25,970 nt of DNA from Heliocybe sulcata (Eukaryota; Basidiomycota; Agaricomycetes; Gloeophyllales; Gloeophyllaceae), in assembly GCA_004369045.1 (NCBI GenBank), contig ML213543.1:49144-75113 (forward strand), written 5' to 3'. The translations under genes were made by a program, and so were the position numbers. Positions 2,474 to 24,760 of the stretch are shown piece after piece. The first letter of the stretch is position 1, and the number at the start of each line of letters is the position of its first letter. The notes beneath the pieces were generated by a model. The model was given only the letters and a program-made list of their open reading frames with translations, did not search any database and was not told where the DNA came from.

Positions 2474-3197
2474 GAGGCCTTATACAGGGGTCCATACATT
2501 CCCAAGTGCTAATAATAGATCATATAGCACTGCCTCTGTTGCCAGGAATATTTGCTGATTTATTGTGATTTTCCCCATATTTTATCGCTGTCTTTGAAGG
2601 CAGCGCAAGCTTACATCATGCAGATTATGTCAGAGCAGGGCTATGACGGACTTGCATGTTCGATAGTTGAGCTGCATGTGCATCATAGTTGCCTTAATCA
2701 GAATCTCTTATAGCCTGACTACAACTTTTTGTAGTCAACAGTAAGTAGCGCTCCTTTAGCAAGCCGGCAGCCAATCAGAAGCCAGGAATCCCAACCGGCG
2801 CGGAAACCTCGTAGTTGAAGCTCCGACAGTGTTCTCTCACGGTAAGAAATGAGTAAGTAAATGATTTGTAGTCCCTCTGCCAAGAACATGCACACAGCAC
2901 ACTCGGAATTGACTCATAAATCAGGCAAATATTTGGGAAGGTATAATATATGGGCCAGATAATATATTTGGAATTTCAGCCTCTGCCAAGAACAGGAGCA
3001 GAAGCACTGTGCAGATTACTGAAATGTGGCACTACAAATCAAAAACTGTAGTCTTGACTACAACCGGAGTTTCAATAAAGTGTTATCAAGACTACAATTT
3101 TAATTCCCACAGTTTCTCGGCATTATCGTGGGAGGATCTGCATTGTTCGGCATCGACCCGGTAAATACTCTTCCTTCGTAAACTCAGGACTCGTAAT
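2474..3197 (+). repeat. Left arm of ~724-bp inverted repeat
   Basis: This arm is the reverse complement of 9180-9902. I count roughly 30 differences over about 724 bp (near 96% identity by eye), with one small indel at the outer edge. It contains six copies of TGTAGTC/GACTACA (2717, 2730, 2867, 3047, 3056, 3090), two of which form a hairpin at 2717-2736. The inner edge at about 3190-3197 is the complement of the last codons and stop of the transposase fragment at 9193, so the arm is a copy of transposon 3' end plus flank. I see no target-site duplication outside the arms. Confidence 0.9.
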
Positions 3198-4172
3198 AAC
3201 GTCATGATACGACCACCATATAAAGTTCCATCTCCGACTCGATCCGACTTGCATGCTACCTTCGTACTGCCCTCCTGACTATGACCACGTCCATCATAGC
3301 CTGTGGCGAAAAGCATGCTACGGTGGCTTATTTGCAGAATCAACGACACACTTGAGGCAGCGGCCTCTATATCCATCGCTCACCTTCATACTCGAGTTGA
3401 ACGTGACCAGACGTACCGAGCCTGACGACAGAGGACAGAGGATCGGCAACCCGTTGCTGGGTTGCATCTACAAGTTGTCAAGGTCAGCATCCGTGGCAGT
3501 GCCCTGCAGCTCCGTCGACGTGGACTTTCGTCAATTAGTGATTCGTCACATCGTTGACTTTGTCCACCTGTGGAACTCACCGGACGGACGTTCCCCACCT
3601 CGGATCGGTTTTCTCCCACATGGGCAGTATCCTCTGGCGACATACCAATCGCGGCTCAGACTGCCAACGAGGAAAGCATTGGTCCCATTTACCCGACAGT
3701 GGGCGGGAGCCTAGTTAGGCGCTCACGACACTACGCCCTTCATCGCTGCGTTTAGCTCGGGTTTTCGGACTGGAGTCGACCTTCGATTGCCCTCCTGTGG
3801 AAGCTGGACTAGGTTTGTCTCCTTGACGCTACTAGTTGGGGACCTTGATGTAGATGCCGAAATCATCATACCGGACTTCATCACCGGTGCTCCTTAGTTC
3901 CTAAGCAAATTTACCACAGGCGATTTCTCATCATACAGTTGAAACTTTATATCGGTACGTTCTGATCTGTAAAACGTGCTTGAATGCTCCTGATCCCTTC
4001 CTGTCCTCGCAGAATTTGTGACAGGTCTTTTGAAAGCACTCTGCTGGATTCGTGGATTCTACGTCGCATCACCTGTGTCACCTTCTGATTCTACTCATTT
4101 ACTTCGTCTCGTAGCCTGGATCGCACTTCTCGCAGTGCAATACTCAAGCCGTCGACCGCCGCCAAGGGCGTT
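3198..4172. other. No gene recognised between left arm and copy A
   Basis: A plus-strand open frame of 153 codons (3253-3714) and an overlapping minus-strand frame (3386-3643) are present. Neither has a recognisable motif, and both look Arg/Ser/Pro-rich as expected by chance. The stretch lies directly downstream of copy A and may hold its 3' UTR or transposon remains. I could not match it to the sequences downstream of copies B or C. Confidence 0.4.
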
Positions 4173-5364
4173 TCAGCTGTGCCATGTCAGATCTTGTTGA
4201 TCGTCCATCGTTCTCAAGGCCACAAGGAATGATGTACTGCTGCAGAAGTCACAAGTGAGCAAATACCGAGAGCGCTGTCACCCGCCTACGCGTACCATGT
4301 GCTCGATGAACTCATTTATCTCGATCAATCTCCTCTTATTGTCAAGGGAATATGCTATAACGTTGTACCTCTGTCGCGCCTCCGACTTGACAGCAGATGT
4401 CAAAGGGTCGATATCTGGCTGAAAGTAATATGGATTCGATCGAATGGCCTCCATAGCTTGTTCAAAGGCTTCAAGCTCAGATCTTGTGTGGATCCGGATA
4501 GGGACATCCTGAAGGCGGAATGTACTGTAATAGTGTACTAGCGGAGACACCATGGTCCATGAAGAGTCCCTTTGTCATGCGCATACATTGCAATTAGAGA
4601 CAGAAAAACGCGATGCACAAAGCGTGGGTACATACATGATAACGGCTGGTACATCCTCAGGTGGACAGCTCGCGATGCATATCAAGTCCTCCTTAAATAC
4701 CACCAGTTCTTCGAGCGGACGCATGATTGTCGGGCTGATGCCCCTGCGGGACGCTTCTTGACATAAGCGCAGTAGTGCGTCGTGGACGAGCGGGAGAGTG
4801 TGACAGTGCTCGTCCGGGGGAAGGGAGAGGACGAGAAGTGAAAGATAATAGGCGGCGGTAAGACGAACTGAGAGGTTATACCTCCTGTCACTAGACAGTA
4901 CACATCTTGTTATCTATTACTGGAAGTGATCGATAGCAGACTTACATCGTGAACTGCACCAGCCTCTCAGTCTCATCACGGGGATGAGAACTCGCACTCA
5001 TGATCTCGAAAAGCATAAATGGTTGTTTGAACCACCAGCCGAGGTGCCTGGTACACCTGTAGTCTCCGGTTTCCTTTCCCCAGGGACGACTGCGACGGAT
5101 AAGTCTAGTATAAGTCGCGTCGGGGCCATTGCCGAGGAGGTCAGAGCACAAGCTGAGGAACATCTCGAGCGGAGCAGCCACTCGCTTCACGAGTCTTCCG
5201 AACGTCCTTCCGGGGCCGACAGCATCGTCGATGGAGGAGTCGTCGTTGTCGGAGTCGGCATACTCGTACTTGACATCGCCGATGGTGATGCGACCGCCGG
5301 GACCGAGCCATTCAAAAGCGGCGCCGCTGAGCTCGACGACAGAGAGATCCTGAGCTGGAGACAT
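4173..5364 (-). CDS. Uncharacterised four-exon gene, copy A (intact)
   Basis: Exons 5364-4946, 4884-4636, 4524-4282 and 4239-4173, with introns of 61, 111 and 42 nt, all GT-AG. Phases agree throughout, giving 325 residues. The start (MSPAQDLSVVEL) is chosen because copies B and C begin at the same point. Visible blocks: EWLGPGGRITIGDV at about 18-31; an acidic stretch followed by SIDDAVGPGRTFG; AAPLEMFLSLCSDLLGNGPDATYTRL; after the first intron RLTAAYYLSLLVLSLPP and DALLRLCQEASRRGI; then RSELEAFEQAMEAI and INEFIEHMVRV near the end. It looks soluble and mostly helical, with no signal peptide and no enzyme motif I know. Many differences from copy B are third-position changes. It lies within the inverted-repeat block, tail towards the left arm. 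An alternative acceptor for the second intron (ACAAG) is also in phase. Function unknown. Confidence 0.75.
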
Positions 5365-5789
5365 GACAATCTGGAAATGAAGGAGAGAAGCGCGGAAGAT
5401 AGCTCTAGACTGCAGGACCGACATCGCACCCGGGCTCGCGCTTGGAGCACTGCCCAGCTGTGTACTGTTCTCGAGATCTCATCTTACCAGCCCCTCTTAT
5501 CACCCAATCACAGCTTTGCTGCACATCTTCAGAGTCTGAGCTGCCCGAGTTCCCCGCGCCTCGAGAGCTATATCTGGCCTCTTCGAGTGACCCGCAGCCC
5601 GTGTGCTTTTCAAATACACACCTGAGGGTACATATCATTGCTGCCATGCGGCGTAAGCGGTAGTAGCACGAGGCATATACGGAACGCTCGATAACTCTTG
5701 CAGTCTTGAATGGGTCCTGTGCCCACTACATGCTCAGTTGAAGCAAACATCAGGAAAAAGAGACATGAGAATGTAGCGCTCCATTGCCA
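5365..5789. other. Upstream region of copy A; possible 5' UTR intron
   Basis: On the minus strand a pyrimidine-rich tract ending CATTTCCAG lies six bases before the ATG of copy A. A possible donor (GTAAGATGAG) lies about 120 nt upstream, so a 5' UTR intron is plausible. I found no TATAAG like that of copies B and C. A plus-strand open frame from about 5442 has no recognisable content. Confidence 0.35.
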
Positions 5790-6062
5790 GAGTAGGGTAT
5801 GTAGTCTTGTAACTAACCCCCCGATTCTATAACACTCTGTGTCATTGGTTTAAGCAATGCAGGACAATCGATGACTACATCATACCGCCCATGCAATGTA
5901 GCCATTGTAGTTCCCGAGTCACGTTGCAGCTGTAGCGCAGTGTAGTACAATGTAGCACGGGTAGTACTATAGGCCTGTAGTCTCGTAGCACCACATAGTA
6001 TACCATAGGAATAGGAGCCAGATCCAATACTCTGCCTATTGCGACCAAAACCTTCACATGCA
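5790..6062. repeat. TGTAG-rich subterminal-type repeat cluster
   Basis: Around ten copies of TGTAG or GTAGT and their complements occur here (for example TGTAGTC at 5800 and 5976, GACTACA at 5873, and CTGTAGCGC near 5930). It lies just past the stop of the DUF6532 gene. The same core TGTAGTC recurs in the inverted-repeat arms, and CTGTAGCGC recurs near 13384, after the orphan Plavaka C-terminus. Clustered short repeats near element ends are typical transposase-binding regions of CACTA-like elements. That this is an element end is an inference. Confidence 0.5.
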
Positions 6063-6123
6063 ATAGTAGTCAAAGAGCAAGATATTATTTATATGGTGCA
6101 GACAGTTGAGAGAATACTGGTAT

Positions 6124-8105
6124 CTAGGACTCGATATCCTCCTCCTCCTCCTCCGAGCTGCCTTCATACAGTCCTCCATGCTCATGGTAGTCTTGTATGG
6201 CTGCTGCGATGGCATCCCCAGACATGGGGCCCCTCCGGCCCTCTGTCCTCATGTCTACACCAGAATGGAACCTGTTGTGATGTCGACAGTGAGTAGTGAC
6301 CATATACGAGATGCTGCTACTACGCACCGTCCGTTCTCAGCGAGAGCGCGCCTGATATCTCCCAAAATCTCCTTACCTCCCTCCTTCTTGAAGTTATACA
6401 GCATCTGGAGGATATCTTCGTAGCGCTCCTTGTACTTCTGGGTGGTGAAGTCGATACGATGTTTCTTCCCAGTCTCCCATTCTTCGATGCAACATTCAAT
6501 CTATTTGCAAATCAGTCACACTCTCGGTGTTAACTGATTGCCACGTACTGCAGTGAACATGAGTGCGAGACACTCATGCGATATCTCCCCGAAATACATG
6601 CCGTACCGGATCCCTTCGTCATCCGGATCCTTAAACCACATGGCATTTACCAGCTTTTGTATGATCTTGTGCTGGAAAGCTCCCTTGCGTCCCTCTGAAC
6701 TCCGGTGCTGCAATTCAATATGTTCAGGAAGATATGGTCGAATATAATAGCAGCAAACGTACACGGTAAGTGTAGTTGTAATCGTCGAGTAGGACTTCAG
6801 CGCGCTTGCGATTGCGCTGTATAGTGGACGGCCGAATACCGGTTTCAAAATTGTAGAGGGTCTCGACCAGCGGCCGTGCCTTTGACTTAAGTTCCCCACG
6901 GACATGCGCATCACGCGCCATGATCTCCAGAAGAAGCATAAGCCGCTTCTGTATGTCTAAGAAAGGTAAGGAGAAGACATACTAATTTGCATATATCTCC
7001 ATCGAGCGGGATATCCATTTTCAGAGCCTCGCAGGCCTTAGCCCATGATTCCGCTGCCATCTTCGAAACGTCCAGTCGTCTGGAAGCGGGGAAAGGGTTC
7101 TCAGAAACCAGGAGGCACCTGAAATGCCTGATACCCTCCTCGATTACATCACGAACATCGTCATCGTAGTTGGACACCTTCGGGCGCTTACAACCACGGC
7201 GAGCATTAGGAGCCACCGACGAATCTTCACGCACCGTGGAATCTTCATGCTCATCAATGCTGCAATCTAATTCTGCATCCTGAACTCCGGTCTCATCCTC
7301 CTCCTCCTGGAATCGACCCTGCGCTGGCGATGGCCGAACTTCTGAAGAATGATCATCGGCAGACCCTGGCGATAGTGAGCGTACACATTTCCGGGACATA
7401 TACATGGATGGATGATCCAGACGATTGCTGCTACGATGCCCGGTCCCTGGGGAAAGCAACAATGACCAGAGTTAGTACAAAACCAAATAGAGGCTTACAA
7501 AGGGACAGACCACGGGCATTCTCTTCTTGATCATCATCATCGAGCGGCGTATCAGCACGTCCATCTGTAAACTGAGACCTATCCAACCGGGTAGACGGAA
7601 TTGGTGGTATATTCGAGTCTCGATGTGCGAGGGCTTGCTTCAAAGGTTGTATTACCGCCTTCGTAGTGAACTGCATGTACAAAGTTCAAGGTCAGGTCGA
7701 GGGTTCAGAGACAGACGTACAGCATTCGATGGTATCGGATTGGCTGGGATATCTGTATCCGATCCATCACCCGGATCGATGTTGCCGGTCACTTTGCGTT
7801 GATGCAGCTGCTCAGCCTTGCGTGCCTTCCAAGCATCAAGCTCATGCTGCTCCACGATTTTCTGTCGACGAGCGGCATCTTGCATCCCAACGGCATTTTC
7901 CTTCTCAACTGGAAACCACTATGAGCATACGAAACAGTAGTTCATACGGGCGTTCACCTTGATAATCACCCCGTTCAGTAGCGCGACGAGCTCGGCCATG
8001 GGAGGAGGCTTGCAGCTGCATGTGTCCTACAGGCTGTACTGCATCCGGGAACAGCTGCTTTTTTGCATTCTGGCGCCGTGTAGGCTTCTGGGAGACTGCG
8101 CGCAT
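6124..8105 (-). CDS. DUF6532-domain protein, eight exons
   Basis: Exons 8105-7958, 7908-7721, 7670-7499, 7446-6983, 6948-6763, 6707-6549, 6500-6328 and 6271-6124. Introns are 49, 50, 52, 34, 55, 48 and 56 nt, all GT-AG, and every join keeps phase, giving 545 residues. The N-terminal 260 residues are charged and low in structure (ARRQKIVEQHELDAWKARKA; acidic DDDDQEE and EEEDE runs; a basic RRGCKRPK). The DUF6532 domain runs from about 265 to 480: VIEEGIRHFRCLLVSENPFP, RGELKSKARPLVETLYNF, HKIIQKLVNAMWFKDPDDEG, IECCIEEWETG. The C-terminus is acidic (SSEEEEEDIES). DUF6532 proteins are multicopy in basidiomycetes and of unknown function. The 34-nt intron is unusually short but needed for frame. 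The start is the first ATG before the protein runs into transposase sequence. Confidence 0.82.
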
Positions 8106-8117
8106 GTTCTTCGCAGA

Positions 8118-9193
8118 TGCTTCACAGAGAAGTATAGGGCACTTGCAGGCTACCGGCTGTTTCATGATTGCATGCGCTCGATCTTGAAGCCTTTGATAGC
8201 AGCCGGGAAGGAGGGTATTGTGATGACCTGTGCTGATGGACACTTGCGTCGAGTGTATCCAATTCTCGCAGCATACATTGCCGACTACCCCGAACAATGC
8301 CTGGTTGCATGCTGTAAGCAGAACTGCTGTCCAAAATGCACAGTCAGTCCTGATGACCGTGGCTCCCCTGTCATATCGGTGCTACGTGACCAGGCGACCA
8401 CGGCAATCGTGCTAGAGAAGAAGGCGAATGACATAGAAGACCCACGGTTCACGGCTCAAGGCCTTCATCCAGTCTGGAAGCCATTCTGGGTGGACCTCCC
8501 ATTTTCCGACATCTTCGCCTGCTTCACGCCGGATATCTTGCATCAGCTGCACAAGGGAATCTTCAAAGATCACCTCGTTAACTGGATTTGTGAGCTTGGA
8601 TCCGACCAGGAGATAGACACATGGTTCAAGGCCATGACTGGCTGAAAGGCATCACATCGATCTCACAATGGACTGGTAATGAGCACCGCCAGATGACCCG
8701 CGTGTTCATTGCTATCTGTGCAGGCTGCATGGATAATCATGTCACTAAGGCTGCGACATGCCTCCTCGACTTCATTTACTATGCCCAGTATCAGCGCCAT
8801 ACCTCTGAGACCCTAGCTCTTATGCAGCAAGCCCTCGATGGCTTCCACGCGGTCAAAGGCATTTTCATACAATACCTTGTTCGGCAGCATTTCAATATAC
8901 CAAAATTCCATTCCTTATTGCACTATATCGACACCATCCGAGCTCTTGGTACGGCCGACGGGTACAACACTGAATCGCCGGAACACCTTCATATCGAATA
9001 TGCAAAGAATGCGTATCGCGCAAGCAACAAGCGCGATTACGAGATCCAGATGGCCAGGTGGCTGCAAAGGCAGGATGCAGCGGCTAGACTTGCTTTGTAT
9101 ATCGAGTGGGTAACTGGTCAGGCAAATTTTGATAAGGTGGGGGACGGCGAAGGGAACGAGGAGGATGACGATGAAGAAGATTATGAGTCCTGA
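8118..9193 (+). pseudogene. Truncated, frameshifted Plavaka transposase (core region)
   Basis: The transposase begins abruptly at FTEKYRALAGYRLFHDC (about 8118), just past the start of the divergent DUF6532 gene. Plavaka core blocks follow: MTCADGHLRRVYPILAAYIA, a CPKC motif, TPDILHQLHKGIFKDHLVNW (presumed second catalytic Asp), then NTESPEHLHIEYAKNAYRAS (presumed catalytic Glu) and YIEWVTG. The N-terminal zinc-finger region and the first catalytic Asp block (SSDKT) are missing. A frameshift with loss of a few residues occurs near 8630 (after DTWFKAMT, continuing at WLKGITSISQWTGNEH). The protein ends in an acidic tail with TGA at 9191, about 250 residues short of a full Plavaka. The last codons lie in the right inverted-repeat arm. 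Open sequence upstream to 7959 is better explained by the opposite strand. It is not functional as it stands. Confidence 0.88.
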
Positions 9194-9902
9194 GTTTACA
9201 AAGGAAGAGTCTTTACCGGGTCGACGCCGAACAATGCAGATCCTCCCACGATAATGCCGAGAAACTGTGGGAATTAAAAGTGTAGTCTGGATAACACTTT
9301 ATTGAAACTCTGGTTGTAGTCGAGACTACAGTTTTTGATTTGTAGTGCCACATTTCAGTAATCTGCACAGTGCTCCTGCTCCTGTCCTTGGCAGAGGCTG
9401 AAATTCCAAATATACTATTTGGCCCATATATTACACCTTTCCAAATATTTGCCTGATTTATGAGTCAATTCCGAGTGTGCTGTGTGCATGTTCTTGGCAG
9501 AGGGACTACAAATCATTTACTTACTCATTTCTTACCGTGAGAGAGCACTGTCAGAGCTTCAACTACGAGGTTTCCGCGCCGGTTGGGATTCCTGGCTTCT
9601 GATTGGCTGCCGGCTTGCTAAAGGAGCGCTACTTACTGTTGACTACAAAAAGTTGTAGTCAGGCTATAAGAGATTCTGATTAAGGCAACTATGACGCACA
9701 TGCAGCTCAACTATCGAACATGCAAGTGCGTCATAGCCCTGCTCCGACATAATCTGCATGATGTAAGCTTGTGCTGCCTTCAAAGACAGCGATAAAATAT
9801 GGGGAAAATCACAATAAATCAGCAAATATTCCTGGCAACAGAGGCAGTGCTATATGATCTATCATTAGCACCTGGGAATGTATGGAGCCCTGTATAAGCC
9901 TC
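9180..9902 (-). repeat. Right arm of ~724-bp inverted repeat
   Basis: Reverse complement of 2474-3197, with the same TGTAGTC motifs in mirror order. The inner edge includes the last codons of the transposase fragment. The outer edge (ATAAGCCTC) lies inside the first unit of a tandem repeat that continues to about 10340, so the arm's end does not coincide with the repeat's end. Confidence 0.9.
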
Positions 9903-10340
9903 TTTGTTGTTGAACTGAGTTTAAATACCTAATTAAATACCTAAAAATACACCAAAAAAATCAGAATAAGCAGCCAGTGCTCAATCACCTGGGAATCATG
10001 CTTATTTGTGCACAGAAGCAGACCTGTATGGCATCCAGCAAAATCACTTGAGTAACAAAATGCCCCAACAATTGCCCAAAAGGATGGGGTAAATCATAAT
10101 AAATCAAAAGATATTCCCGGAGACAGGGGCAGTACTATATCAGCTGTTATAAGCACCTGGAAATGCATGGAGCCCTGTATAAGAGCTCTGGGTTGTTGAA
10201 CTCAACTCAATAAGTAACTAAAAATACGCCGAAAAATCATGATAATCAGCCAATACTCAGCCACCTGTGAATCATGCTTATGTAAGCATGGAAGTTGTGC
10301 TGCATGTCTTCTAGCAGTCGCAATTGAGCGGGAAATGGCC
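9798..10340 (+). repeat. Two diverged ~285-bp direct repeat units
   Basis: The unit from about 9798 (ATGGGGAAAATCACAATAAA) is repeated from about 10084 (ATGGGGTAAATCATAATAAA). Matching landmarks are GGCAGTGCTATAT / GGCAGTACTATAT, AGCACCTGG(G/A)AATG, TGGAGCCCTGTATAAG, GTTGTTGAACT, and AATCATGCTTAT. A third, more decayed unit may follow to about 10520. The first half of unit 1 lies in the right inverted-repeat arm. No coding content is seen. Confidence 0.7.
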
Positions 10341-11308
10341 CAAAAATCAGAAAATTCAATAGTACTCACCTGTATATAGGTTTCAGCCTACATAAGAACA
10401 TGAACAATGTGGGATAATCCCTGCCAGAATAAATAAACTGAAACAATTGATTAAAAATGCACAAAAATTCAGGATAGCCAAGAACACTCAGGTAAGCAGG
10501 TATTGCTGCTTAGATAAGAACAGATACCACTACAAATAAAGTAGTGAATTTTTTAAGTGAATATTGCTGCTCATTGTGGCCGGCACCATCTTGTAGCCCT
10601 GATATAGAAGGAGCAACAGTATACTTTGGTGAGTTCCACTTCACATGTAGGTTTATTACTAAAAGCAGAAATAATTGTGCACAAACTGGGGACAGTGTAT
10701 CCTTGAAGGTCATCTAGATAATATGTGGTGGAATATGTGGAATAGCAATTTTTTATTTTGGATCTGGTTGTCACGCTGATCAACATGAACACACGACGAA
10801 ACCCTGAAAGAGGAAGACCTAAACAAACAACAACAACCACACACCAGCACCAATCCCTTGGTGCTGCCGCGGCTGCGAGGCCCCGGGGATCGAAGGGTAT
10901 GAATGTAGTTTGGAGGGAGTCAATGGGAAATATAGGACCGAGACCACAAGCCACAAGAGCGACGTAGCAAAGCGCTAAAAATAGAACAAGCGGCGAAAGC
11001 GACCGGAAGCGACGGAGAGCGCTATAGAAGCGAAAAGGCGCTGAACGCTAAAAATAGATGTAGACTCTAAAAATAGAATGAAGCGAAAAGACCTCTGGTG
11101 TCTGGCGGAACACAGACAGCAAAAGCTCTGAAAGAAACAGACGGAAAGCGCACAATGAGTGAAACAGCGACACGTGGGAAAATATGACGAAGCAACAGCG
11201 GCAGGTGTAGTGACAGTGCCCAAACGCTGGCGATGGCTAGGGACGACTCGGAGCGTAGAGCGGTGAAGGTTTTGTGAAGCGCAGGAGGGTGAGCAACGCT
11301 TGCCAGCC
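10341..11308. other. No gene seen; repeat debris
   Basis: This begins AT-rich and becomes rich in GCGA and CGCTAAAAATAG (near 10973, 11045 and 11070) after about 10960. Open frames on the minus strand (10510-10954 and 10975-11321) have no motif and vary with composition. I see no gene. Confidence 0.5.
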
Positions 11309-11380
11309 GTTTTAGCGACAAGCAGCGGGTTTAGCGACGATTAGCGGGTTTAGCGACGATGAGCAGGATTAGCGACGGAG
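11309..11380 (+). repeat. 19-bp tandem repeat (AGCGGGTTTAGCGACGATT)
   Basis: Units start at 11324, 11343 and 11362 (period exactly 19 bp, the third with two changes). A partial unit (TTTTAGCGAC) precedes them at about 11309. The repeat sits in a GCGA-rich low-complexity stretch. Confidence 0.75.
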
Positions 11381-12436
11381 ACGCAGGAAACTCAGATGGA
11401 GACGCAGGGAAGGGAGGGAAACACTAGATTGCGCAGGGAGGACGAGATACAAGCTCTGGGGGGATTCTGGTAGACTCGGGAACCTGAATTACAAGTACAG
11501 GAGGTGCTACTCTAGTAGGCTACCTGCCTAAACCAAATAGCCGAGGTCCCTGTGCTAAACAATAAGAACAATAGCTATATGCAAAACAATAAGAAAGGCT
11601 AGACCAAAACCCGAACCTCGGAACAAGCTCCAGGAGCTGCAGCATCCATATACGGAAGCGGCCGCTGGCTGACGCAAGCGTGGGAATGTGCGCTCATCGC
11701 ATCAAAAGCGCTGCCAATGAGTGGCCGGACGACGGACGGTGCCGGCAAGGCACACACACTCTCGGAAATGACTCGAAATGACTGAGGCGACCTAGAACAA
11801 GACCGTCGGCCATTGCCGAAGCGTCGCTGCACTGCACCGCTACGACGTGTCGCCAGCGCCGACGCCGACAGCGACGAAGCGCCGCTGCAGCGCTGCATAT
11901 CGAGAGGCCAGCGACAGCCTATGGAACGATTCGGAGCGTCTGTCAGGCGAGATCGGAGCTCAGGAAAAGCCAGGAAGTAACGGAAAAATCCATAGAAACT
12001 TGAATATCGCTCGTAGCGTGACGCCGCGGATACGCTCACTATCGCACAGAGCGTGGGAATCTGTGCAAATAGCTTGAAAATGCATTTTCAGCGCTCAGAG
12101 ACATGTAGGGCGTATTAACGCTTGCATAAACAGGCCTGTACACCCACATGTGTCTGTCCTTGCTTATTAACTTATCTCTTTCCCTTAGTATCTAGGTATG
12201 GGTTGTTGTACTTTGGTTCTTCTTGTAGATAGCATCCTTGTCACTATATGTAGATATTGTAGTAACTGCATGTGAGATATGTAATTAAATATGTTTTCCT
12301 ACTCATATTTGAGTGACATGTGCCAAATTTACTTCAGAAAATTTCAAACTCAGGACTCGTATCATGCCATGCACAGCAGTGGCCCACTTCCACAAGTCCA
12401 GAAGGACGCGATATGCTCCGGACTGCACACCTAAGG
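11381..12436. other. No gene seen between low-complexity DNA and Plavaka remnant
   Basis: 11381-12080 is GC- and GCGAC-rich with overlapping open frames on both strands (11599-12039 minus, 11847-12077 plus). None has a recognisable domain. 12080-12310 is AT-rich. A 16-nt string (AAACTCAGGACTCGTA) near 12346 also occurs at the inner edge of the left inverted-repeat arm near 3180. Confidence 0.45.
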
Positions 12437-13210
12437 TCGCAGAACCACGTCGCCATCGGTATCGCTCGTAAGTGTCCTTCCCCTGCAACTAGGGTTGACA
12501 GACTTGAACAGGAATATGGTGCAATGGAGTTCCTTCCGGCTTTGCGCACATTCCTTGCCGAGACGTGTGTGACTCTCAAGATTCAGCCGAAACGGTCCGA
12601 TGTCTTCGACGTCTACAAGGCAGCTCGTATTCCTTTGCCTTCCAGCTATCATCTGCCTGACTCTACCATGAATTCGACCAAAGTCCATGCTGTCCCATCT
12701 CGGAGAACCAAGAATGCTAGGAAGTCGGACTCGCCAGCGCGGTTTGATATGGTACTTGTTGTGGAAGACCGCGCAGGACGCAAGAGTGACCCTTCTGGTA
12801 TCCGCGGTGCGTCTGATCTTCACCTTAGACAGTTTAAAAGTTTTCATATTGACTCTAAATCACTTTCAGGTCTGCGAGTCGCTCAAGTGCGAGTAATATT
12901 CAAGCTACCTGGCGAGCTTGGCGGGACCAATGAACAAGAGCCTCTCGCTTATGTTCACTGGTTTCGTCCTCTCCAATCCATTGATCCGGTCGGTAACATG
13001 TTCAAGCTCGTACGCTCGACCCGTCAGTCACGGCCAAACGCTTCGATCATCCCTGTCAGTGCGATCGTCCGGACTTGTCACCTTGCACCTCGGTTTGGGA
13101 CGGCAGCGGTGATGGAGTCTTGGGCAACGGATGATAGAAACGAGTTTCTGTTAAATAAGTATATTGATCATTCCATGTTTGAGATGCTTCGACACCATGC
13201 ATACGAGTAG
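12437..13210 (+). pseudogene. Orphan C-terminal part of a Plavaka transposase
   Basis: Two exons, 12437-12806 and 12870-13210, are joined by a 63-nt GT-AG intron. The protein matches the C-terminal quarter of the Plavaka at 21510-24704 in order: IARKCPSPATRVDRLEQEYG against its AKHPTLRAVPLAAIRQDYG; PARFDMVLV against PSRFDTVLV; then, after an intron at the same site, RVAQVRVIFKLP against RVAQVRVVFSLP; then YVHWFRP against YIEWFTP, ASIIPVSAI against ASIIPVLQI, and a final NKYIDHSMFEM. The TAG is at 13208-13210. The DDE core is absent immediately upstream, so it cannot work alone. It could be the displaced 3' end of the truncated copy at 8118-9193, which stops just before this region of the protein, or a remnant of a separate element. 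Confidence 0.85.
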
Positions 13211-13336
13211 GTACTCATGTACTCTGCCAATCACTTGACAAACTTGAAGGTCGATCTCAAAGTAAATGGTTTCCGTCGGGACTCCAAAGCCCAGACAAGC
13301 TTGAAAATGTATTCCACACAATGAATCCTACAAGGC

Positions 13337-13530
13337 AGTATCATTTCGAGTACTAGGGTAGCAGCCGTAGTACACGGTAGCCACTGTAGCGCGGGGAGTG
13401 CGACATAGGCACGGCAGCCACTGCATAGACATATCGGGAATGCCGACAACAATGTATGACATCATGTGCGTACCGAGGTCTAAACCTACACACTGTAGCC
13501 TTTGGGAGCCTACAGACTTGTATTTGGGCG
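13337..13530. repeat. GTAGC/TGTAG-rich subterminal region after orphan Plavaka end
   Basis: Repeated GTAGCAGCC, GTAGTACAC, GGTAGCCACTGTAGCGC, GGCAGCCAC and CACTGTAGCC motifs occur within about 190 bp, starting some 130 bp past the transposase stop. The pattern resembles 5790-6062, including a shared CTGTAGCGC. It is probably the 3' subterminal region of the element. The true end and target-site duplication are not identified. Confidence 0.5.
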
Positions 13531-13791
13531 AAACCAGGGCTACCGTCGGTGACCCTTTTTCCTGATGAACTGGCGTGGTAGTTAGGACAGAGAGTCTTCG
13601 GAGAGATCTACTCACCAGCAAGGAGAAGTCCGTGAGTAGAAGAGTACGCAAAAGAATATTATGAGTGCAAGAGGCAGTATGGAGCTCGAACGAAGAGTAC
13701 ATCACGGCGTGATCGTGTACCAGGCTGATAAGATTAGACTCGATAGCTCGCGCCTTGCGCCGCCCCACCAGAGCTGTGCACTAGTACTGCT

Positions 13792-13797
13792 TATAAG
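13792..13797 (+). promoter_or_regulatory. TATAAG core promoter of copy B
   Basis: TATAAG lies 36 bases before the copy B ATG and is followed by a CTTGGAT motif. Copy C has the same arrangement at 18502. Upstream, about 13663 onward shares GTGCAAGAGGCAGTA with copy C's upstream region. Confidence 0.5.
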
Positions 13798-13832
13798 AAG
13801 AACTTGGATGATGACTACCCTGTTTGCCTACC

Positions 13833-15357
13833 ATGTCTTCGACCGACGACCTCTCCATCGTTGAGCTCCGCGGCGCCGCCTTTGAATGGCTAGGCCCAAG
13901 CGGTCGCATCGCCATCCACGGCGTCGAGTACGAGTACGCCGACTCGGACGCGGACGACGACTCCATCGACGACGCCGTCGGCCCTGGAAGAACATTTGGA
14001 AAGCTCGTGAAGCCCGTGGCTGCTCCGCTGGAGATGTTTTTCAGCTTCTGCTCTGATCTGCTGGGCAACGGCCCCGACCCGACTTTCACTAGGCTCATGT
14101 GTCGCAAACACTCTATTCCAAAGAAGTTCGGGCGTCGGAGGAACCTGACCTGGTGGTGTAAGGAGCATTTGATCCAGCTATGGACCATATACTATGAAGA
14201 CGATGAAAATATCGAGAGGCTGGTGCAGTTCGTGATGTAAGTCTGCTACTCATCACTTCCGGTAATACGTCGTAAGACATGTACTACCTAGTGACAGGCG
14301 ATACAAATTTTCAGTCCGTCTTACCGCCGCCTATTACCTTCTCATCCTTCTGCAGTCGCTCCGCTCGTTCCAGCTCTGGCGTATCCTCCCGCTCATGCAC
14401 AACGCCCTGTTGCGCTTATGCCAGGAAGGGTCTCGGCGCGGTATCAACTCATCGATCCTGAAACCGCTGGAAGAGGTGGTCACATTTAATGAGGAGCTGA
14501 AACACATTATATACTGTTGGAGCCAGAAAATGCCAGATGTCATCATGTATGCACTCTAACTCCGCGTATACCATCTTTCTGCTCTAATTGGAGTTCATCT
14601 CCATGACAAAGTGGGTCTGGGGGTGGTGTTACATCTCTATTTCTACTCACTCGACAATTGCATCCCCTATGCTATGACTACGACATCCGCACAAGATCAG
14701 ACCTTGAAGCCGTGGAGCAAGCACTGCAGGTTATTCTTTCAAGCCTACGTCGACTTCCACCAGCTACCAACTTCTTCATGGATGCTCTGAGGAAGGTAGT
14801 TGCAGGTGAATGCGACTACCTGGCACGTCACATCAATGAGGAACGGGGAGTAATTAAGACGAAAGAGTTTCTCGAGCATGTGGTACGCATGACCAGGTAA
14901 CGATGCTCCTGACGCTTCACTCACTTCCTCCTTCGGCAGCAATATACCATTCCTTGCGGTCCGGGGTATGGTAGCCGGTACACGTCTGTATCTTGCAGCG
15001 ACCCTGGAACGTGGTCCTGGATGGATAGAGCACATGCACTGGATAGTGTGCAGAATCTATGTCCAGGTTGCAAGCACACACGGTGCCCGCGACGAAACAC
15101 AGCGCGGTTCCATTCTCATTTCATCTCCTAGTTGCTTTATCCACTCCAGGTCGGACTCTGACCTAGATGTAAAGCATACTCGGTCTTCCCGTAGCTACGA
15201 CTCGTCTCAGGCAATGACATGTACCATAACGACTATTCATACTGCATGTATGAGGGGAGGAAATGCAGAAAGGACGTCACCATCCATGAGCCGGCGCCAG
15301 TCACAATTAATCGTAAAATGCAAAGAGAAGAAGCGAGCGGCAAGTCGGATGGGTTAG
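13833..15357 (+). CDS. Uncharacterised four-exon gene, copy B (splice site probably damaged)
   Basis: Exons 13833-14236, 14298-14546, 14696-14896 and 14940-15357. The first intron (61 nt) and second exon (249 nt) have exactly the same lengths as in copy A. The homologous acceptor of intron 2, used in copies A (ATTACAG) and C (TTTTACAG), has no AG here. The nearest in-phase AG is ACAAG at 14691-14695, which removes about nine residues. The same AG exists in A and C, so it could also be the true site in all three. With it the protein is 423 residues. It shares all family blocks: FEWLGPSGRIAIHGVEYEYADS, SIDDAVGPGRTFGKLV, a LEMFFSFCSDLLGNGPDPTFT block, LTAAYYLLILLQSL, NALLRLCQEGSRRGI, RSDLEAVEQAL, KEFLEHVV, NIPFLAVRGMVAGTRLYL. 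The last 120 residues have no counterpart in A or C and are probably read-through. Function unknown. Confidence 0.6.
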
Positions 15358-18300
15358 TGACACACTCTGCCACCCGTTCAGTCGGACTTGAATATCCTCC
15401 TGGGACGGTACGAGAAGGATCGAGTTGGGCGAGCATATAGGGCACTGCCCTGTCTGCGCGAGTATTGTTCCGAGACGAGACTTGCTGACGAATACTCAAC
15501 TATCAGAACGGCTTCGCGAAACGGCATAGAGACAGGTTCGGTGAGCCCAGGCACGAAATCGGGTACCAAGGCCTCTCTTGATTAGTATGCGCGCGACCGG
15601 TGCCGTGCAGCTATGACTCACTAAATTCCAGTCTTCACAGCACCGCCAGTACAGCGCGATATGAGTGTTCGCGCTTAGCGTACCGGGACACAACAGGTGA
15701 AGATCCAGGCCTAGGAATCAGCCAGAGGAAGGAGCACTCACGATAGTCGCGGGTCCATGGTAGTCGAGATGCATTTACGCCAGTCGCATTATGCACGAAC
15801 AACGACGGACATCGAGGCCCCTGCCTGAGATATGCTCTCAATTCGCTCCTACGCGCCTCTTGTTTCGGTAATACCCACTCGAGTAGATATCGACAGAACT
15901 CCTTGCCAGAGGGGAGCAGCGCAGTACGGATAGGGGAAGGAGATACGGAGGAGCATACCTGGATAGCAAGCGAACAATTGTGAGGTAAGTATTCAGTTCC
16001 AGATGGCGATCACGGCGCCATGATCGTCAGCGAGGAAGCACTGTGGGGATCCGTGCAAGTACATGGAGGCCGACGATGGAGAGAGCCAGGCAGCCGTGGA
16101 ATACATCTGAAGTCGTACCGACGGAGTCTACCATCTAAAGGTTCACGAGCTGGGGAAGGCACAGTCATGGAGGAAACGGAAAAAGGCGCGTGGCAGGAGC
16201 CGCCAGCAGATGTGACCATGTGGATGAACTGAGACGAGAGCGGCATGACAAGAGCGAAGATGGAATGTTATGAGCCGAATAACAACTGGTGCTGGCTTCA
16301 GAAAGGGAGCAAGAGAGCGTCGTGGCGCTTGGTGCCACGCGGGCCTTGTCGTCAATGGTCGAACAGGCAACGTTATCACTACGTAGACATATATGACACA
16401 GTACTAGAAGGTACCGCGTGTCCGGACGTAAGGACGACGAACAGCAAGAGTTAGCTGGAGCGCACCATGATCCGATGACTGAAGATGCCATCGTGCACCA
16501 TAGGTCCTGTGTATTCGCCGCCTCACAATCCCATCGTCTTTCCCTCAAGCTGGATAGAGCGCAAGATCCCGTCTCCGAAGAAACCTGGCCGCAGGGAAGA
16601 GAGTCGCGTGCATCTTGCAGTTGAGGAGAGCCTTCGCTGGGTTGACGCTGACCTTGGAGAAACACTCCGCGATATGATAAATACGTATCCGACTCATGTC
16701 AAGAACAGAATGCGCAAAGGCAGTTCAGAGAGTCGCCGAGCACTGCAATTAGTAGGACGACAGGGAGTGGAGTCACGAGTCATTGCCCGAGCTATATCTT
16801 GGAGGAAGCCCGTCCAATTCCCGCGCCCGTGTACCAGTGCCGCCCAGCAACGAAGACTAGAACAGACCTGCCATACCATCTTCCGACGCGAGACTTCATA
16901 CCAGCCGAATGATCTGCGAGTTCGGCGGGAGGAGGACATGAGGGTTCAGGTCCAGGGCGAGCCATCGAGGGCACGACTCCGTCCTGTAAGGGGGATACCG
17001 TATACGGATGAGGAAGACACATGATGGAGAGACTGTCAGCGTTGGGGATGCAGGCGAGCCTCCTCTGTTAAAGCGTGGCAATGGGACGGGGACGGACTCG
17101 TGAATAAACGCGGTCGGAGACTACAATGGAGCACTAAACGTTCCTTCATCCGCACGTGGACCATGAACCTTCTCTCGGTAGCCACAGAATCGAAACGCCT
17201 AGTCGACCGGACCACGGCCTCGTCTGAGCTTTTTCAAACATGCTTTTCATTTCCACGCGGAGTCCGGGCACTGCCGCGCCCTGAATTATGCTCGCAACCT
17301 GCGCAGGCTGTGCGAGGCGCCGTAGAAGTACCCAATAGGACGGGGGTGTCCTAAAGCCGACGGACGTCGATATTGAGCCCAGCCTGAGAGAGTGCGGAAT
17401 GATCAGCAAAGGAAGACATCTAAGACAGGCTGTACGAGAGCTTCATGTCCGCACCTTTCTCAAGTGCCGATTGTAGGCGCCAAATCCGATAATATCGCGC
17501 TGCAGGAAATGGCAAGGGGAGAAGTCGTAGAATGTAGGAAGCACGAGGATACAGCGGAATTGGCTAGTCGGAGCAGCTTGAACTTTGAAGCGCACAGCTC
17601 CGCTTCAAGTAGAGAGGATAAGATACCAAAACACGTAGCCGAGCAGTGCCAGACAATTGGGTCGTATGGATGGATGACAGCTCACAGTGGCAAGGCGGTA
17701 GGATGCACTTATCGCGGTCTGATGAAGCTGTGGGTTGGTCAGATCCGAGATAGCGCCTAATAAGTGTCTATAATTGGTACAGGAGCCGCGAACGACAACG
17801 TTCGAAGACCAGGCGCATAGCTTGCACAAGGCTCGGCGGTGCAGTGGGCAGCGTTACCAGAGTGTGGCAGATCGAACTACACGACACATTGGAAAACACA
17901 GCAGCACAAAGATAGGACAGAACGTACCGTGGTCCGAGTATATGCGCCTCCATTCGCACCGCACCCCATTTCTGTCACTCCGACACCGAGTTCAGCATCC
18001 CCACCGGAGACTGGACGTTGTCAGCGTCCAACTTGGCAAATCCGAGGTAAAGGCGAAGAGATCCACTTGATGCGGGTGACGACCGTGGAGATAGATGGCA
18101 CTGTCGATGACGAGAGCATGCGACAAGAGTAATGGAGGCGCTCGTACAATACAATGTCCGCCGCGATCAAGCAGGCGGCGTCCAGAGCAATGTTTCCAAG
18201 ACACTGCTGTGAAGGTACCATTTCTTATTCTTAGCAGACCCGTGGTCAAAGACAGACGAGAACTTAGCAATGCGGGAGGCACGATGTATAGGATGTGCAT

Positions 18301-18501
18301 GTGAGCCCTGAGGCCTATGCAACAAGGGAGAGCTGTCGAGCGATAATCAATGAGTGGCTGGGTATGAACGAGCAGACGGCGTGCAAGAGGCAGTAGACAG
18401 ACCAGAGAACCTTCGAACACGTGTGATCGAGGACTGCATCCTGATTGGCTGACGGGGTTGATAACATTAGATTCCAAGTTTAGCATCTACACTGCAGTGC
18501 C
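15358..18501. other. Copy B downstream segment, no convincing gene
   Basis: About 3.1 kb with many stops in all frames and only short open frames, the longest 179 codons at 16485-17024, which has no recognised motif. Parts are collinear with the segment downstream of copy C: GTGAAGATCCAGGCC (15698 and 20700) and the 150-bp block at 16084. I read it as decayed, duplicated intergenic or old transposon sequence. Confidence 0.5.
16084..16237 (+). repeat. Segmental duplication block (partner 21176-21330)
   Basis: Shares a run of landmarks in order with 21176-21330: CCAGGCAGCCGTGGAAT / CCAGGAAGCCGTAGAAT, GAGTCTACC, TTCACGAG, GGCACGGAC-like spacing, and GACCATGT(G/A)GATGA. In both copies the same frame reads EPGSR followed by S(L/L)P(S/T)K, so it may derive from an exon, but neither copy is convincingly coding. 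Confidence 0.65.
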
Positions 18502-18507
18502 TATAAG
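18502..18507 (+). promoter_or_regulatory. TATAAG core promoter of copy C
   Basis: TATAAG lies 40 bases before the ATG of copy C and is followed by CTTGGAT, as in copy B. Confidence 0.5.
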
Positions 18508-18546
18508 ACTACCTTGGATCTCGCAAGAATGCTACCTCCCCATACC

Positions 18547-19772
18547 ATGCCTTCCACTGATGACCTCTCCATTCTCGAGCTCCGAGGTCCTGCCATCGAA
18601 TGGCTCGGTCCGGGTGGGCGCATAACCATTGGCGACGTCGAGTACGAGTACGCCGACTCGGAAGCCGACGACGACTCCATCGACGACGCCGTCGGCCCTG
18701 GACGGATGTTTGGCAAGCTCGTGAAACGGGTGGCTGCTCCCCTTGAGATGTTCTTTAGTGTCTGCTCCGATCTCTTGGGCAATGGCCCCGATGCGACTTT
18801 CACTAAGATTATGCGTCGAGATGGTCCTTGGGTAAAGGAATACAGGCGTACTCGGCGCCTCAGCTGGTGGCTTAACATGCATGAGCACATTGTGTGGCTC
18901 CCATCACCCGTAGGCCGCCACATTGGCGAGGTTGGGAGGCTGGTGCAGTTCGTGATGTAAGTCTGCTACACAATACTTTCCGTGATGTATAACAAAGCCA
19001 CGCACTACGTAGTGACAGGCGTTATAGCCTATCAGTCCGCCTTACTGCTGCCTACTACCTGGTACTCATTATGGCACAGTCCTTTCTGGGTGATCTCCCT
19101 GGTCTCCTACCGCTCATTCACGACGCGCTGTTGCGCTTATGCCTGGAAGGTTCTCGCCACGGTATCTAGTCATCGACCTTGCGACCGCTACAAGAGGCAG
19201 TGACATCCAAAGAGGACCTCATACGTATCGGCAGCTGCGATGACGAGGAGATACTAGCTGTTATCATGTACGCCCCCGCACTTTGTGTATACTCCCGTGC
19301 TGACCCGTACTGAAATGTGTCTGAATACCAAAAAGCTCGTCCAAGAACATGAGGTCTTTGTTAGTACATTATCACTGCGTAGTTAGATTATTTTACAGTT
19401 GCTCCGACATCTACACAAGAGACGACCTTGAAGCTGTGGAGCAAGCGAGTCTTTGCTCAAGGAAATTTCGGCTTCCGGCAGATCCCAACCCTCTCGAATA
19501 TGCCTTGAAATCGGAAGTGCAGAGATTTTATGACTGGATGGGAGATGAAATCGATGACAAGAAGAGCAAAATCGAGATGCGAGAGTTTATCGAGCACATG
19601 GTATGCATGAGAGAGTAACTGGGCTCCCGATACCTTGCTCACTCTCGAGTTGGCTTTCCGCAGCGCTAATATACCATTCCATGCGGCCCGGAGTATGGTA
19701 GCCGATACACGGCTGTATCTTGTACCTACCACGACGGATACCGGTACTGGGGAGATAGTATTTTTGGATTAG
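18547..19772 (+). pseudogene. Uncharacterised four-exon gene, copy C (in-frame TAG)
   Basis: Exons 18547-18956, 19019-19267, 19399-19614 and 19664-19772, with introns of 62, 131 and 49 nt, all GT-AG with matching phases. Without the lesion this would be 327 residues ending at a TAG (19770), with a C-terminus close to copy A in length. The second exon is again 249 nt. It contains TAG at 19167-19169 (codon 187), where copy A has AGC (Ser) and copy B has AAC (Asn), right after SRHGI. Family blocks are otherwise well kept: IEWLGPGGRITIGDVEYEY, DDAVGPGRMFGKLV, EMFFSVCSDLLGNGPDATFT, SVRLTAAYYLVL, DALLRLCLEGSR, RDDLEAVEQA, MREFIEHMV, ANIPFHAARSMVADTRLYL. The rest is undamaged, so the stop seems recent. 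It may still give a 186-residue protein. Confidence 0.72.
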
Positions 19773-21509
19773 ACAGTGTACAGACTCTGTGTCCAGGTTG
19801 CGAGCACCGGCAGTTCTCGTCCATCGTGCCCTCTCCGTCGTCGTTGTTCCGCCAGAATTCATCCATGAAAATTGACGGTGCCAAAAGTCGACCGTACCGA
19901 GTGGCAGAATTCGCCTAGTCATCAGAGGATAGGGTATAGAGAGCGTCAGTTGGTGCATCAGACGAGACTAAGACTTACCGCCTGTAGTTCCACAGCGATG
20001 CGCTAGACGGGTAAGTAATCTGGCAATTACGCTAACAGGAGCCCGAAAGTATGTCGGACGAACAGGACCCACGTGAAGTCGCAGCCATATGTCGAGACTG
20101 TTCATGGTACATCTGGTCAGCGTCCACCGGTCACTGGTGACGAGCCCGCGATCTCCACGACCTTTGTATCGGGACGAAGACACCCGCCCACCTGACAAAC
20201 GTACAATAGCGCATTCCATGAGCGATCGAGCACAGCCCGACTCGAGTCAAAATACCGAAGAAACGCACCGATGGAGGACATACCCGGGCGAGCGCCTAAC
20301 TAGGCGCCCGCTCACTATTGACCGTGTATGCCTTCTTCCGACACCTTCCTGCTAATGGTAGCGGCCGAGATTAAGATGCTGAAAGAGCAGATGCTTCCGA
20401 GCTGGAAGAAAATCGGTCCACGATGTCGCTCCCTTCCAATGAAGCAGAAACGCGATCATAAGCTCGCACACTCAGCTGATTTCGTCGAGCCGGAATGAGC
20501 CTTGCAATATCAGCTGGAGAGACTTCGACTCCTGAAGTACCAAAACAGTACTCAATATTTTAGGAGCAATGACTTAGCTGCGTATATTGGACCAGAAAAA
20601 CCAAGTGAGACGCATGGGAGAAGGAACACATCGGGAGAACTTGAAGCGGGTTGTCCTACTCAAGGCCGTTGCTCCGACACGAGACTCGTGACTGGCTGCG
20701 GTGAAGATCCAGGCCCTGCACAGCGCGGGTACCGCTTTACGATAGCATGTGGTTCGAAGACTCAAGCCTGACCGAATACGAGGAGCTCGCGCACCCGAGC
20801 CCGACACGGTCCAGCTATGACTCTCAAGCCAGAGTCATTGTCAAACCGTCAGGACAGCGCCGCCTGAATTGTTGCATCCGGAATGCTCCAAGCCTACGAC
20901 GGATACCGAGGCCGTTGCCCGAATACACCGTCGACTCGTACCTGATGTTATGTACGGGACAGCGTCTCAAATAAATGGAGGACGAATAACAGGATATCTC
21001 GCCGGGAGAGACAGACAGCTCAGTGACGGCTGAACTGAACGGAGACACGGGATTCGAGTAGGTAAGCGAGGACAACGAGCAAACCCTCGTGCGACCAAAG
21101 TCCACTTTCATATGCTGATCGCGGCACCAGAGGTAAATAGAAACACGGAAGCGGAAACATCGGACAGTCAATCCAGAGAACCAGGAAGCCGTAGAATGCA
21201 TCTGGGGTTTTATCCACCGAGTCTACCGACCAAGAATTCACGAGACTGGGGGAGGCACGGACATGTTGAGGATAGAAGAAGGCGGGGGACAGGAGTTGCT
21301 AGCGGATACGACCATGTAGATGAGCTCAGGAAAGACGCATAGGCATCAGGGAAAACCCCCGCCGCTGATTAGATCGTAATTAGCTCTGATTATTGCTAGG
21401 GGAGGCTAAGGCATGTAATCGTCCTTATAAGAGGTAAATCACGAGTGGGCTGTACTAAACCAATATAAAAGCAGCCAATTCTTGCCAATTGTGTATACAT
21501 TACAATCTA
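19773..21509. other. Copy C downstream segment, no convincing gene
   Basis: About 1.7 kb of short open frames, partly collinear with the copy B downstream segment. A short stretch at about 20500-20560 reads ALQYQLERLRLLKYQN, faintly like a glutamine-rich helix (ALQDYQMQLMLLEQQN) common in fungal hypothetical proteins, but it follows a stop and has no extended open frame. 21340-21509 is likely the 3' flank of the Plavaka element that follows. Confidence 0.45.
21176..21330 (+). repeat. Segmental duplication block (partner 16084-16237)
   Basis: Second copy of the block downstream of copy B. The offset (about 5.09 kb) is close to, but larger than, the copy B to copy C offset (4.71 kb), as expected for a tandem duplication with later indels. 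Confidence 0.65.
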
Positions 21510-24500
21510 TTAGAACTGCGTCATGTAGCTATGCCGGTCGAGAAATGGGTTAACATAAAACATAGTCGCCTCATCCAGTACAGTACTGGATGTCCACTCG
21601 CGTGGTACAGTAGGACCCCACTTAGGATAGAGATGGATGCTGCGTCGAATCTGAAGCACGGGAATGATGCTTGCCAGTCGGTCATGATTGCGAAGGGATC
21701 GGGACACTTTGAACAGACGGCTACTGGGCTCAGGCGATGACGTAAATGGTGTAAACCATTCGATATATGCAAGGTGTTGGGGTGGGGGACGGCGGGGAAA
21801 GAGGAGGGAAATCACACGTGGTGGAAGAGAGAACACGACTCGTACTTGTGCGACACGGTAGCCTTGATGACTGTCAGGTAGATAAATCGAAACAGTAGTG
21901 AAGGGACATACCAGATAACCCGAACTCATTACCCGACCCGAGATTCACCAAAACTGTGTCAAAACGTGATGGTACAGGCCGACCGCGCTTGTCAGACCTG
22001 CCTGGCCTGACATGTACCGCATCTGATGAGGTGAAAGATGCTCCGTCCAGCCGTGATACGTCGGCATGAAGAAACTTGATTTTGTGGTACACGGGTAGCG
22101 TCTGGAATGGCAAAAAGATGTCTCCAGAAGCATCCTCCACTTGTTGAGCCGAGAACCGAGGATTATTGAATTGCACCACAAAGCGAGCGAAGGCATCTGA
22201 AAAGAAACGCGCGCCATAGTCCTGGCGTATCGCCGCGAGAGGTACAGCCCGCAGAGTCGGGTGTTTAGCCATACGCAGTCCCGGAACATCTTCACGAGCA
22301 TACATCGGAGGGTCCAAAGCAGTCAACTGCAGCTGTGACGGGGCTGGAGTACGAAACCTTCTTGCTAGGCACCATTCAATATATTTGGCATGCCGTAGTA
22401 CCTTTTCACGACGCTCGAGCCAGGCTGTCATTTGCGGATACTCATCCTTACGGTTTGTGGCCCGATACGCATCCTTCGCAAGGTCGATATGAAGTCGTTC
22501 CGTATACTCAGTGTTGTAGTTGTCTGTAGTCCCGAAGAGCTGGATCGATAGGAAGTAATGGATCAATGCATGGAGCTTCGGAATGTTGAACTGATCTCGT
22601 ATTCCAAGCTCAACAAAGATATGCTTACTGTCATGGAAACGTCGCAGAGCATCGCGCAGATGATCAAGAGTGTGGTCGGTATGCACAGGATATTGAGCAA
22701 GGTATAAGAAGTCAAGAAGAGCTCGGATAGCCCTGACTAGAGTCGCCGACGAGACGTGGTTCGGCAAGCGTATGTCGAGGACGAGCCCGAGCAGCAGCTG
22801 GCACATCTGTGCATGCTCTCGACCGGTGACTCGTGACAGCGTACTGATACCCTTCTGGAATATACGAATGCCATGGTTAGGGGGAAACCTTCGGCAGCGA
22901 GCATCGATCTCAGCCGCGGAGCAGGCACTTGTAATCCAAGCTATAATGTGCTTCATTACCCCCTGGTACATCTGGTGGAGGTTATCGGGGGTTATTGCCT
23001 GATAGATATTGACGTATGGCAGCTCTTCCCAGAATGGCTGCTGTATCGGCTTAATTCCCGCTGTCTTACAGGCCTTCACGAACACGTCAGGACCATCTGC
23101 TAGTGTGGCAAGTGCATCGAGACTGCCGTCCATGGACCGGAGCTGGTACTCGTCATCTTCATCATAGTCACCGAGCCCGTCATGGCCTACTGGACATTTC
23201 GGACAATCACCATATTTAGTGCCGGCAACAAGAACCTGTTCTGGGTAGTCGCCAACGAATGTCGCGAAGATGGGGTGACAGCGTCGCCATACACCATCAC
23301 TGCTGACCATTGCCAGCCCCACTTGACCTGCCTGCTTCAGTGGATGAAGGATTCGTCGGACACAAGAGTGAAAGAGGTTTGCGAGAGTGCGGCGGCGGGC
23401 AGCCTTATTGGTAATATGGACGAGACGGGTTGTCGGCAGGTACCCCAGGAGTACGTGTCCACCTTGCGATGGCTTGCGCCGGATCTCCTTTGGCAGATTC
23501 CCAATCGTCATGTAGATGGGGTAAGCAGATTTATTGCCAAAGAGTGTTACCTGCGTCTTGTCAGATGAAATTATGACCGGGATTATTGTGGCTCCAGGAG
23601 TATTGTACTCAACCGCCTTCTGCCAAGGATCGAATGGGTCAGTCTGAGTGCTCTGTATCTAGCATTAACAGTACAACATACCTGTGTATTCCACCACCAT
23701 TTGCCAGTATGCATGTCGAAGTACATCCGCGTTGTCTTGTCCGGATCTGCATAATGACGCTCTGGAGTGAAGACGAGATGCTTCGCAAACTCCGGATCCC
23801 CATAGAGAGCCTTGAGACATTCAATAACATTGCGGTAGTATAGCTCAAAAGCCTCGCCCGCAATCACAACTTCTTCTCGTCTGAAGCGAGGCCGACTAGG
23901 AAGGGAATCGATTTTCTTGTTCAGCTCATCAGCAGTCTTGAATGAAAGCCCGAGCGCGTCGCGCAGCTGTCAAATCTTTAGCATATGGTACATATAGAGC
24001 AAAGACGAACATATGCCTTCTATTCTCAAGAGTTCTGTCAGGGCTGTTGACCCTGGACCGCGAAGCTTGGCCCACCGTGCTACCTCCCAATCCAATCGCG
24101 AGCTGAATGGAGACCAGATATCGGCAGAAGGAGTACGAAGCTGGGATGCATAGAGATGATACTCAGACAATGCAGCATCCTGATGGCGAAGTGGTTTGCC
24201 GGCTGCATTCGACGGGAAATGCTCGACCGCAGCAGACTTTCGTAAAGTCTCTGCAGCCTGTTCCCGTGTCATATGAATCCCGCTCACATCTTCCTCAGCT
24301 GTCATCTCCACATCCGGTTCAGATGATGCTGGAGCTGCGGGAGGATCAGGTTCCCAGCTGTGCGACTCGGCCTCTTCATCGTCCGACAAACCACTGCTGT
24401 CGGAGTCGCCGGTGCTTATTGCCTCCATATCCCACTGGACATCATCACCAGCATGGTTTTCGAAGTCGTCAGGATGATAATCCGAGCCGAAAAAGTCGCC

Positions 24501-24704: not shown

Positions 24705-24760
24705 AGCTGATGGATGGCCGCAGACACTCTTCACCGAGAGTCTATCTGAACTGCATGACG

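Follow-up and report, generated by a model that had tools for sequence, protein, structure and literature searches.

Lineage-specific gene families that contain no known domain are common in fungi. Among the described systems with which such a family can be compared are the fungal allorecognition (het) genes, and het-d and het-e of Podospora anserina are presented as NLR allorecognition genes in a published account (PMC12222747). For basidiomycetes, the mechanisms of non-self recognition are called completely unknown in another report (PMC8229728). Here we describe a window of 25,970 nucleotides (the whole stretch of DNA that was analysed) from the basidiomycete Heliocybe sulcata, which forms the end of the 75,113-bp contig C41 in a genome of 31.6 Mb in 51 contigs. 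The window carries three copies, A, B and C, of what is very probably a real and constrained orphan family.

Each of the three copies consists of four exons in the same order, with intron phases of 2, 2 and 0 and introns of 55–68 nt, which bears out the common architecture proposed in a first-pass annotation of the window. The exons are placed as follows.

4946 to 5364, minus strand: copy A exon 1, with the start codon at 5364; N-terminal module and variable stretch
4636 to 4890, minus strand: copy A exon 2, 255 nt, with the IDRRYNLSVRLTAAYYL.. core
4296 to 4569, minus strand: copy A exon 3, terminating in EFIEHM
4144 to 4239, minus strand: copy A exon 4, departing from the family after YIIPCG, with the stop at 4146-4144
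13833 to 14236, plus strand: copy B exon 1
14292 to 14546, plus strand: copy B exon 2, 255 nt
14612 to 14882, plus strand: copy B exon 3
14940 to 15131, plus strand: copy B exon 4, in the family-conserved frame, QYTIPCGPGYGSRYTSVSC..LDSVQNLCPGC..
18547 to 18956, plus strand: copy C exon 1
19013 to 19267, plus strand: copy C exon 2, with an in-frame TAG at 19167-19169
19336 to 19600, plus strand: copy C exon 3
19664 to 19813, plus strand: remnant of copy C exon 4, with an in-frame TAA at 19667-19669

With B as the query, exon 1 of A was matched at E = 2.3e-46 and exon 1 of C at 9.7e-52, indicating that the three copies are related far beyond chance. The starts given in the first-pass annotation (5364, 13833 and 18547) were retained, but two of its ends had to be moved: copy A ends at 4144 instead of 4173, and copy B at 15131 instead of 15357. 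The frame of B that ends at 15131 is common to C and to the copies E, H and I found elsewhere, while position 15357 closes a different frame. Within the window, the whole conserved frame is open in copy B only. The conserved C-terminus is lost in copy A after YIIPCG, and copy C, which extends from 18547 to about 19813 on the plus strand and had been taken for an intact gene, is interrupted by the TAG in exon 2 and the TAA in exon 4. Conserved blocks that had been singled out are present in A, B and C with small changes, TFG being replaced by MFG in C, and PDAT by PDPT and EFIEHM by EFLEHV in B. Exon 2 measures 255 nt and intron 1 measures 55–56 nt in A, B and C, which replaces the earlier values of exactly 249 nt and 61–62 nt. 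The shorter version splices to an AG that lies six bases beyond the likely acceptor; loci J and M are without this downstream AG and yet retain Asp-Arg-Arg-Tyr through other codons, which favours the 255-nt exon, and the 249-nt one was rejected. Exon 2 is 246 nt long in D and 258 nt long in I.

A six-frame search of the genome with B gave 37 matches at 14 loci, replacing the three-copy family first described, with eight loci on C41, three on C46 and one each on C27, C7 and C8, and the divergent copies L and K as queries recovered the identical 14. This count is a lower bound for the readable part of the 31.6-Mb genome, since C41:20266-20900 and 33090-49143 read N. Two small contigs, 75 and 77 kb long, hold eleven of the 14 loci. 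The phase pattern 2, 2, 0 was observed in nine of the 14 loci, from explicit models in D, E, H, A, B, C and I and from spliced alignment in J and L, where the alignment puts a further, doubtful intron in the last part of both; extra, doubtful introns were also placed in weak parts of several copies. Locus K is partial and retains the first two introns, M is likewise partial, and F, G and N are fragments only. Copies A and D have altered ends, and the C-terminal ends given for J, K and L are provisional. The first stop occurs at residue 331 in D, 379 in E, 354 in H, 347 in A, 373 in B, 362 in I and 188 in C, and the open gene models encode 331–379 residues. Upstream in loci J and L there is an additional, partial N-terminal module in the same open frame. 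Such a partial extra module, in tandem and in frame, was noted in two divergent members at C27:316464-317123 (L044) and C46:61699-62340 (L042). A protein tree of 11 rows, from which the extra upstream module of J and L was trimmed off, left seven of its eight inner branches open.

Several other elements share the window. Plavaka-type transposase genes lie at 7941-9193 on the plus strand (PF18759 match at 7941-8645, E = 2.2e-64) and at 21510-24962 on the minus strand (PF18759 match at 21874-23658, E = 1.8e-86), and a frame at 12317-13210 on the plus strand, which has no Pfam match, looks by eye like the end of such a transposase. Transposase matches of this type are in keeping with a basidiomycete. 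A minus-strand fragment at 6911-7471 resembles DUF6532 (PF20149) at E = 4.7e-5 and 23.8 bits, with a cut-off of 24. Inverted arms of 719 nt that are 97% identical (2479-3197 and 9180-9898) enclose copy A, and one of them overlaps the extreme end of a Plavaka frame. RNA genes were not found in the window at the thresholds used, with the tRNA scan run in its bacterial setting. In the genome, 39 Plavaka matches were listed, including two loci on C41 and some on C27 and C8; among these matches, which are a lower bound, none lies on C46 or C7.

As the first-pass annotation had supposed, the family corresponds to no known domain in the libraries searched. No Pfam family matched A or B at E up to 1, and a scan of nine members (A, B, D, E, H, I, J, K and L) at E up to 5 gave a single match in one member at E = 0.19; neither HET, NACHT/NB-ARC nor any other known domain was found in these nine. 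NCBIfam gave no match at E up to 1, and PHROGs gave just two one-member matches, the better at E = 0.021. A PDB profile search revealed no significant relative, the best match being Pumilio homolog 23 (5wzg, E = 0.25, positions 137–242) or, for exon 2 of B alone, Kalirin (E = 1.1). Assignment to a known domain was rejected on these results. Two peptide patterns were matched 21 times in bacterial and archaeal contigs and 19 times in viral contigs, none of the matches being confirmed, and prokaryotic or viral relatives were rejected within the reach of two patterns per contig set. Judged by these searches, the family is new to the libraries searched. Among the papers listed in literature searches, no title or abstract opening that names it was found, which does not imply its absence from print. 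Across nine proteins, the highest 19-residue hydropathy mean was 1.62, with no likely membrane helix by hydropathy and no hydrophobic N-terminus, suggesting that the family protein is probably soluble and intracellular.

Constraint on the protein was assessed by dN/dS over exons 1–2 in 10 of the 14 loci, where 10 of the 45 pairs were saturated. Among the seven closest copies, every one of the 21 pairs gave a value within 0.24–0.44, which indicates that the protein is constrained, now or recently. The values are not near 1, and the selection at the protein level that had been read from third-position differences between A and B is upheld. That excess is real: over 220 codons of exons 1–2, these two copies differ at 60, 44 and 96 sites at codon positions 1, 2 and 3, respectively (dN/dS 0.32). 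The 20-codon-window, exon 3, grouping and permutation analyses used seven of the 14 loci (A, B, C, D, E, H and I). In 20-codon windows, pN/pS was 0.16–0.32 within aa 1–90, 0.61–0.95 at aa 81–141, 0.18 at aa 132–151, up to 0.88 in mid exon 2 (aa 152–171) and 0.55–0.94 in exon 3. These values show that purifying selection is strong on aa 1–90, with the N-terminal module, and on the DRRY block, and that constraint is looser over aa 91–131, in mid exon 2 and in exon 3. Pooled over the seven copies, exon 3 has a pS of 0.515 and a pN of 0.363, with pairwise ratios of 0.35–1.23 that in places come close to neutrality, and among D, E, C and I it is nearly neutral (pS 0.33, pN 0.30). In no 20-codon window of the seven copies did pN exceed pS, the maximum ratio being 0.95; as there is no excess of amino-acid change, diversifying selection is not claimed.

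Spacers connect copies D, E, C and I, with 85–99% identity over their best 0.8–1.4 kb. The links join D with I on the upstream side and D, E and C on the downstream side; C and I have no spacer in common at high identity, and the upstream side of E matches no other copy. The spacer of this group that lies in the window is as follows.

20115 to 21343, unstranded: spacer 3' of copy C, sharing 82.6% and 83.5% identity with those 3' of D and E across 1.2-1.3 kb

Compared with E, its best 200-nt bins reach 87–97% at 2.0 to 2.8 kb. For D and I, which lie on different contigs, identity is 96.5, 95.0, 96.0 and 96.0% in successive 200-nt bins between -2200 and -1400 of the start codon, and beyond -2200 it goes down to 90.0 and 76.8%. 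From -1400 towards the start codon it falls unevenly through 90.0, 86.7, 78.5, 90.1, 79.2, 74.9 and 70.5% (the -1000 bin at 78.5%, the -800 bin at 90.1%), and inside the gene it is 67.0–81.5%. Copies D and E are 84.8–99.0% identical from 2.0 to 3.4 kb after the D start codon and then 79 and 75%, with about 600 nt right after the gene that could not be aligned. Spacer pieces of 386 nt and 1,701 nt each have three genome matches, self included, all of which adjoin family genes. The shared spacers, the stopped copy and the fragments show that copies arise together with their flanks by duplication and subsequently decay; the fast turnover proposed earlier agrees with these duplicated units and decayed copies.

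The coding regions of the same four copies revealed a different pattern. Within D, E, C and I, synonymous difference rose from 0.33 in exon 3 through 0.44 in exon 1a to 0.55 in the core, defined as exon 1b plus exon 2, values near 0.55 approaching saturation; between these four and the set of A, B and H it was 0.58 for exon 3, 0.52 for exon 1a and 0.52 for the core. The introns differ by 0.32, 0.23 and 0.25 within the four. Among 35 possible groupings, that of D, E, C and I came first in both exon 3 and exon 1a; its rank was 19 in exon 1b and 26 in exon 2. When codon columns were permuted across the core and exon 3, the difference had p = 0.0006 and the loss of grouping p = 0.0002 (reached in 0 of 5000 shuffles); versus exon 1a the two values were 0.022 and 0.018. 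The test was preceded by the spacer linkage of the four copies and was designed when the closeness of exon 3 was already visible. As a pattern, D, E, C and I have near-identical spacers, which could themselves be constrained, and yet exon 1b and exon 2 show no trace of closer kinship. This contrast suggests that the core has been exchanged between paralogues, or that divergent cores have been retained while recombination homogenised the flanks.

The same contrast might be produced by ectopic recombination together with spacer constraint, acting on ordinary lineage-specific accessory genes that are occasionally duplicated, weakly constrained and in several cases decaying. We consider this account possible, if rather doubtful. 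It agrees with the stop codons of C, the changed ends of A and D, the fragments F, G and N, the partial loci M and K, the nearly neutral exon 3 within D, E, C and I, and the crowding of 11 loci on two small contigs, but it does not sit easily with the strong constraint on aa 1–90 and DRRY or with a core divergence peak that is significant. A family for intracellular self/non-self or anti-parasite recognition with a diversified core would share the duplicated units, the conserved N-terminal module, the variable core and the near-identical flanks around divergent cores; pN exceeds pS in no 20-codon window, however, and HET, NACHT or other known domains are absent from the nine members scanned, so that this reading seems improbable.

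That the copies are cargo of Plavaka-type DNA transposons, in line with the tie to transposons drawn in the first-pass annotation, appears very improbable. Two Plavaka loci lie between or beside the copies on C41, a further one on C8 is found some 18 kb from fragment N, and copy A is situated between the 719-nt inverted arms. However, four of the 14 family loci are on C46 and C7, where no Plavaka match was listed, and none of the listed matches falls inside the shared spacers, and cargo of this type was rejected for these reasons. The arms are copies of a dispersed repeat for which 49 genome matches were listed, both arms and partial ones counted, and a long-inverted-repeat element around copy A was rejected as well.

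A birth-and-death array in which the core is exchanged or kept divergent is the most economical account of the family, and shuffling or maintained divergence of this kind is rather likely. We lean towards the explanation that, as a whole, this is a real, undescribed family of protein-coding genes in such an array of a basidiomycete-type fungus, with a binding adaptor as its putative product. An intracellular binding adaptor is our tentative best guess on function, by analogy: the conserved N-terminal module would serve a constant partner, and the varied, helical-looking core would serve changing partners. A recognition or defence role is unlikely on present analogies, and the fuller proposal of an array of recognition genes in a mushroom-type fungus, encoding soluble intracellular proteins with a conserved N-terminal module and a core shuffled by gene conversion between near-identical spacers, is less likely still. 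If the recognition-array reading were true, the family would be a candidate for somatic incompatibility, antiviral or anti-transposon defence genes in basidiomycetes. The combination of strong N-terminal constraint, a divergence peak in the core and near-identical spacers provides a testable signature. Should the core prove polymorphic among strains, the locus would become a concrete candidate for non-self recognition in basidiomycetes; should it not, it would still exemplify birth and death shaped by recombination.

Compared with known systems, the family genes on C41 have Plavaka-type DNA transposons (PF18759) as neighbours, but they show no match to the transposase, and the contigs that carry four of the 14 loci have no listed Plavaka match. 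Segments of exon 2 appear amphipathic-helical, as in ARM/HEAT/PUF-type helical repeat proteins, and the weak Pumilio profile match is to a protein of this type, but that match is not significant (E = 0.25) and no Pfam repeat was matched. In a comparison with het-d and het-e, no HET, NACHT or WD domain was found in the family members scanned. The resemblance of the family to fungal allorecognition genes and recognition-gene arrays is one of pattern and does not extend to domain content: like the het genes, it comprises divergent members with products that are probably intracellular.
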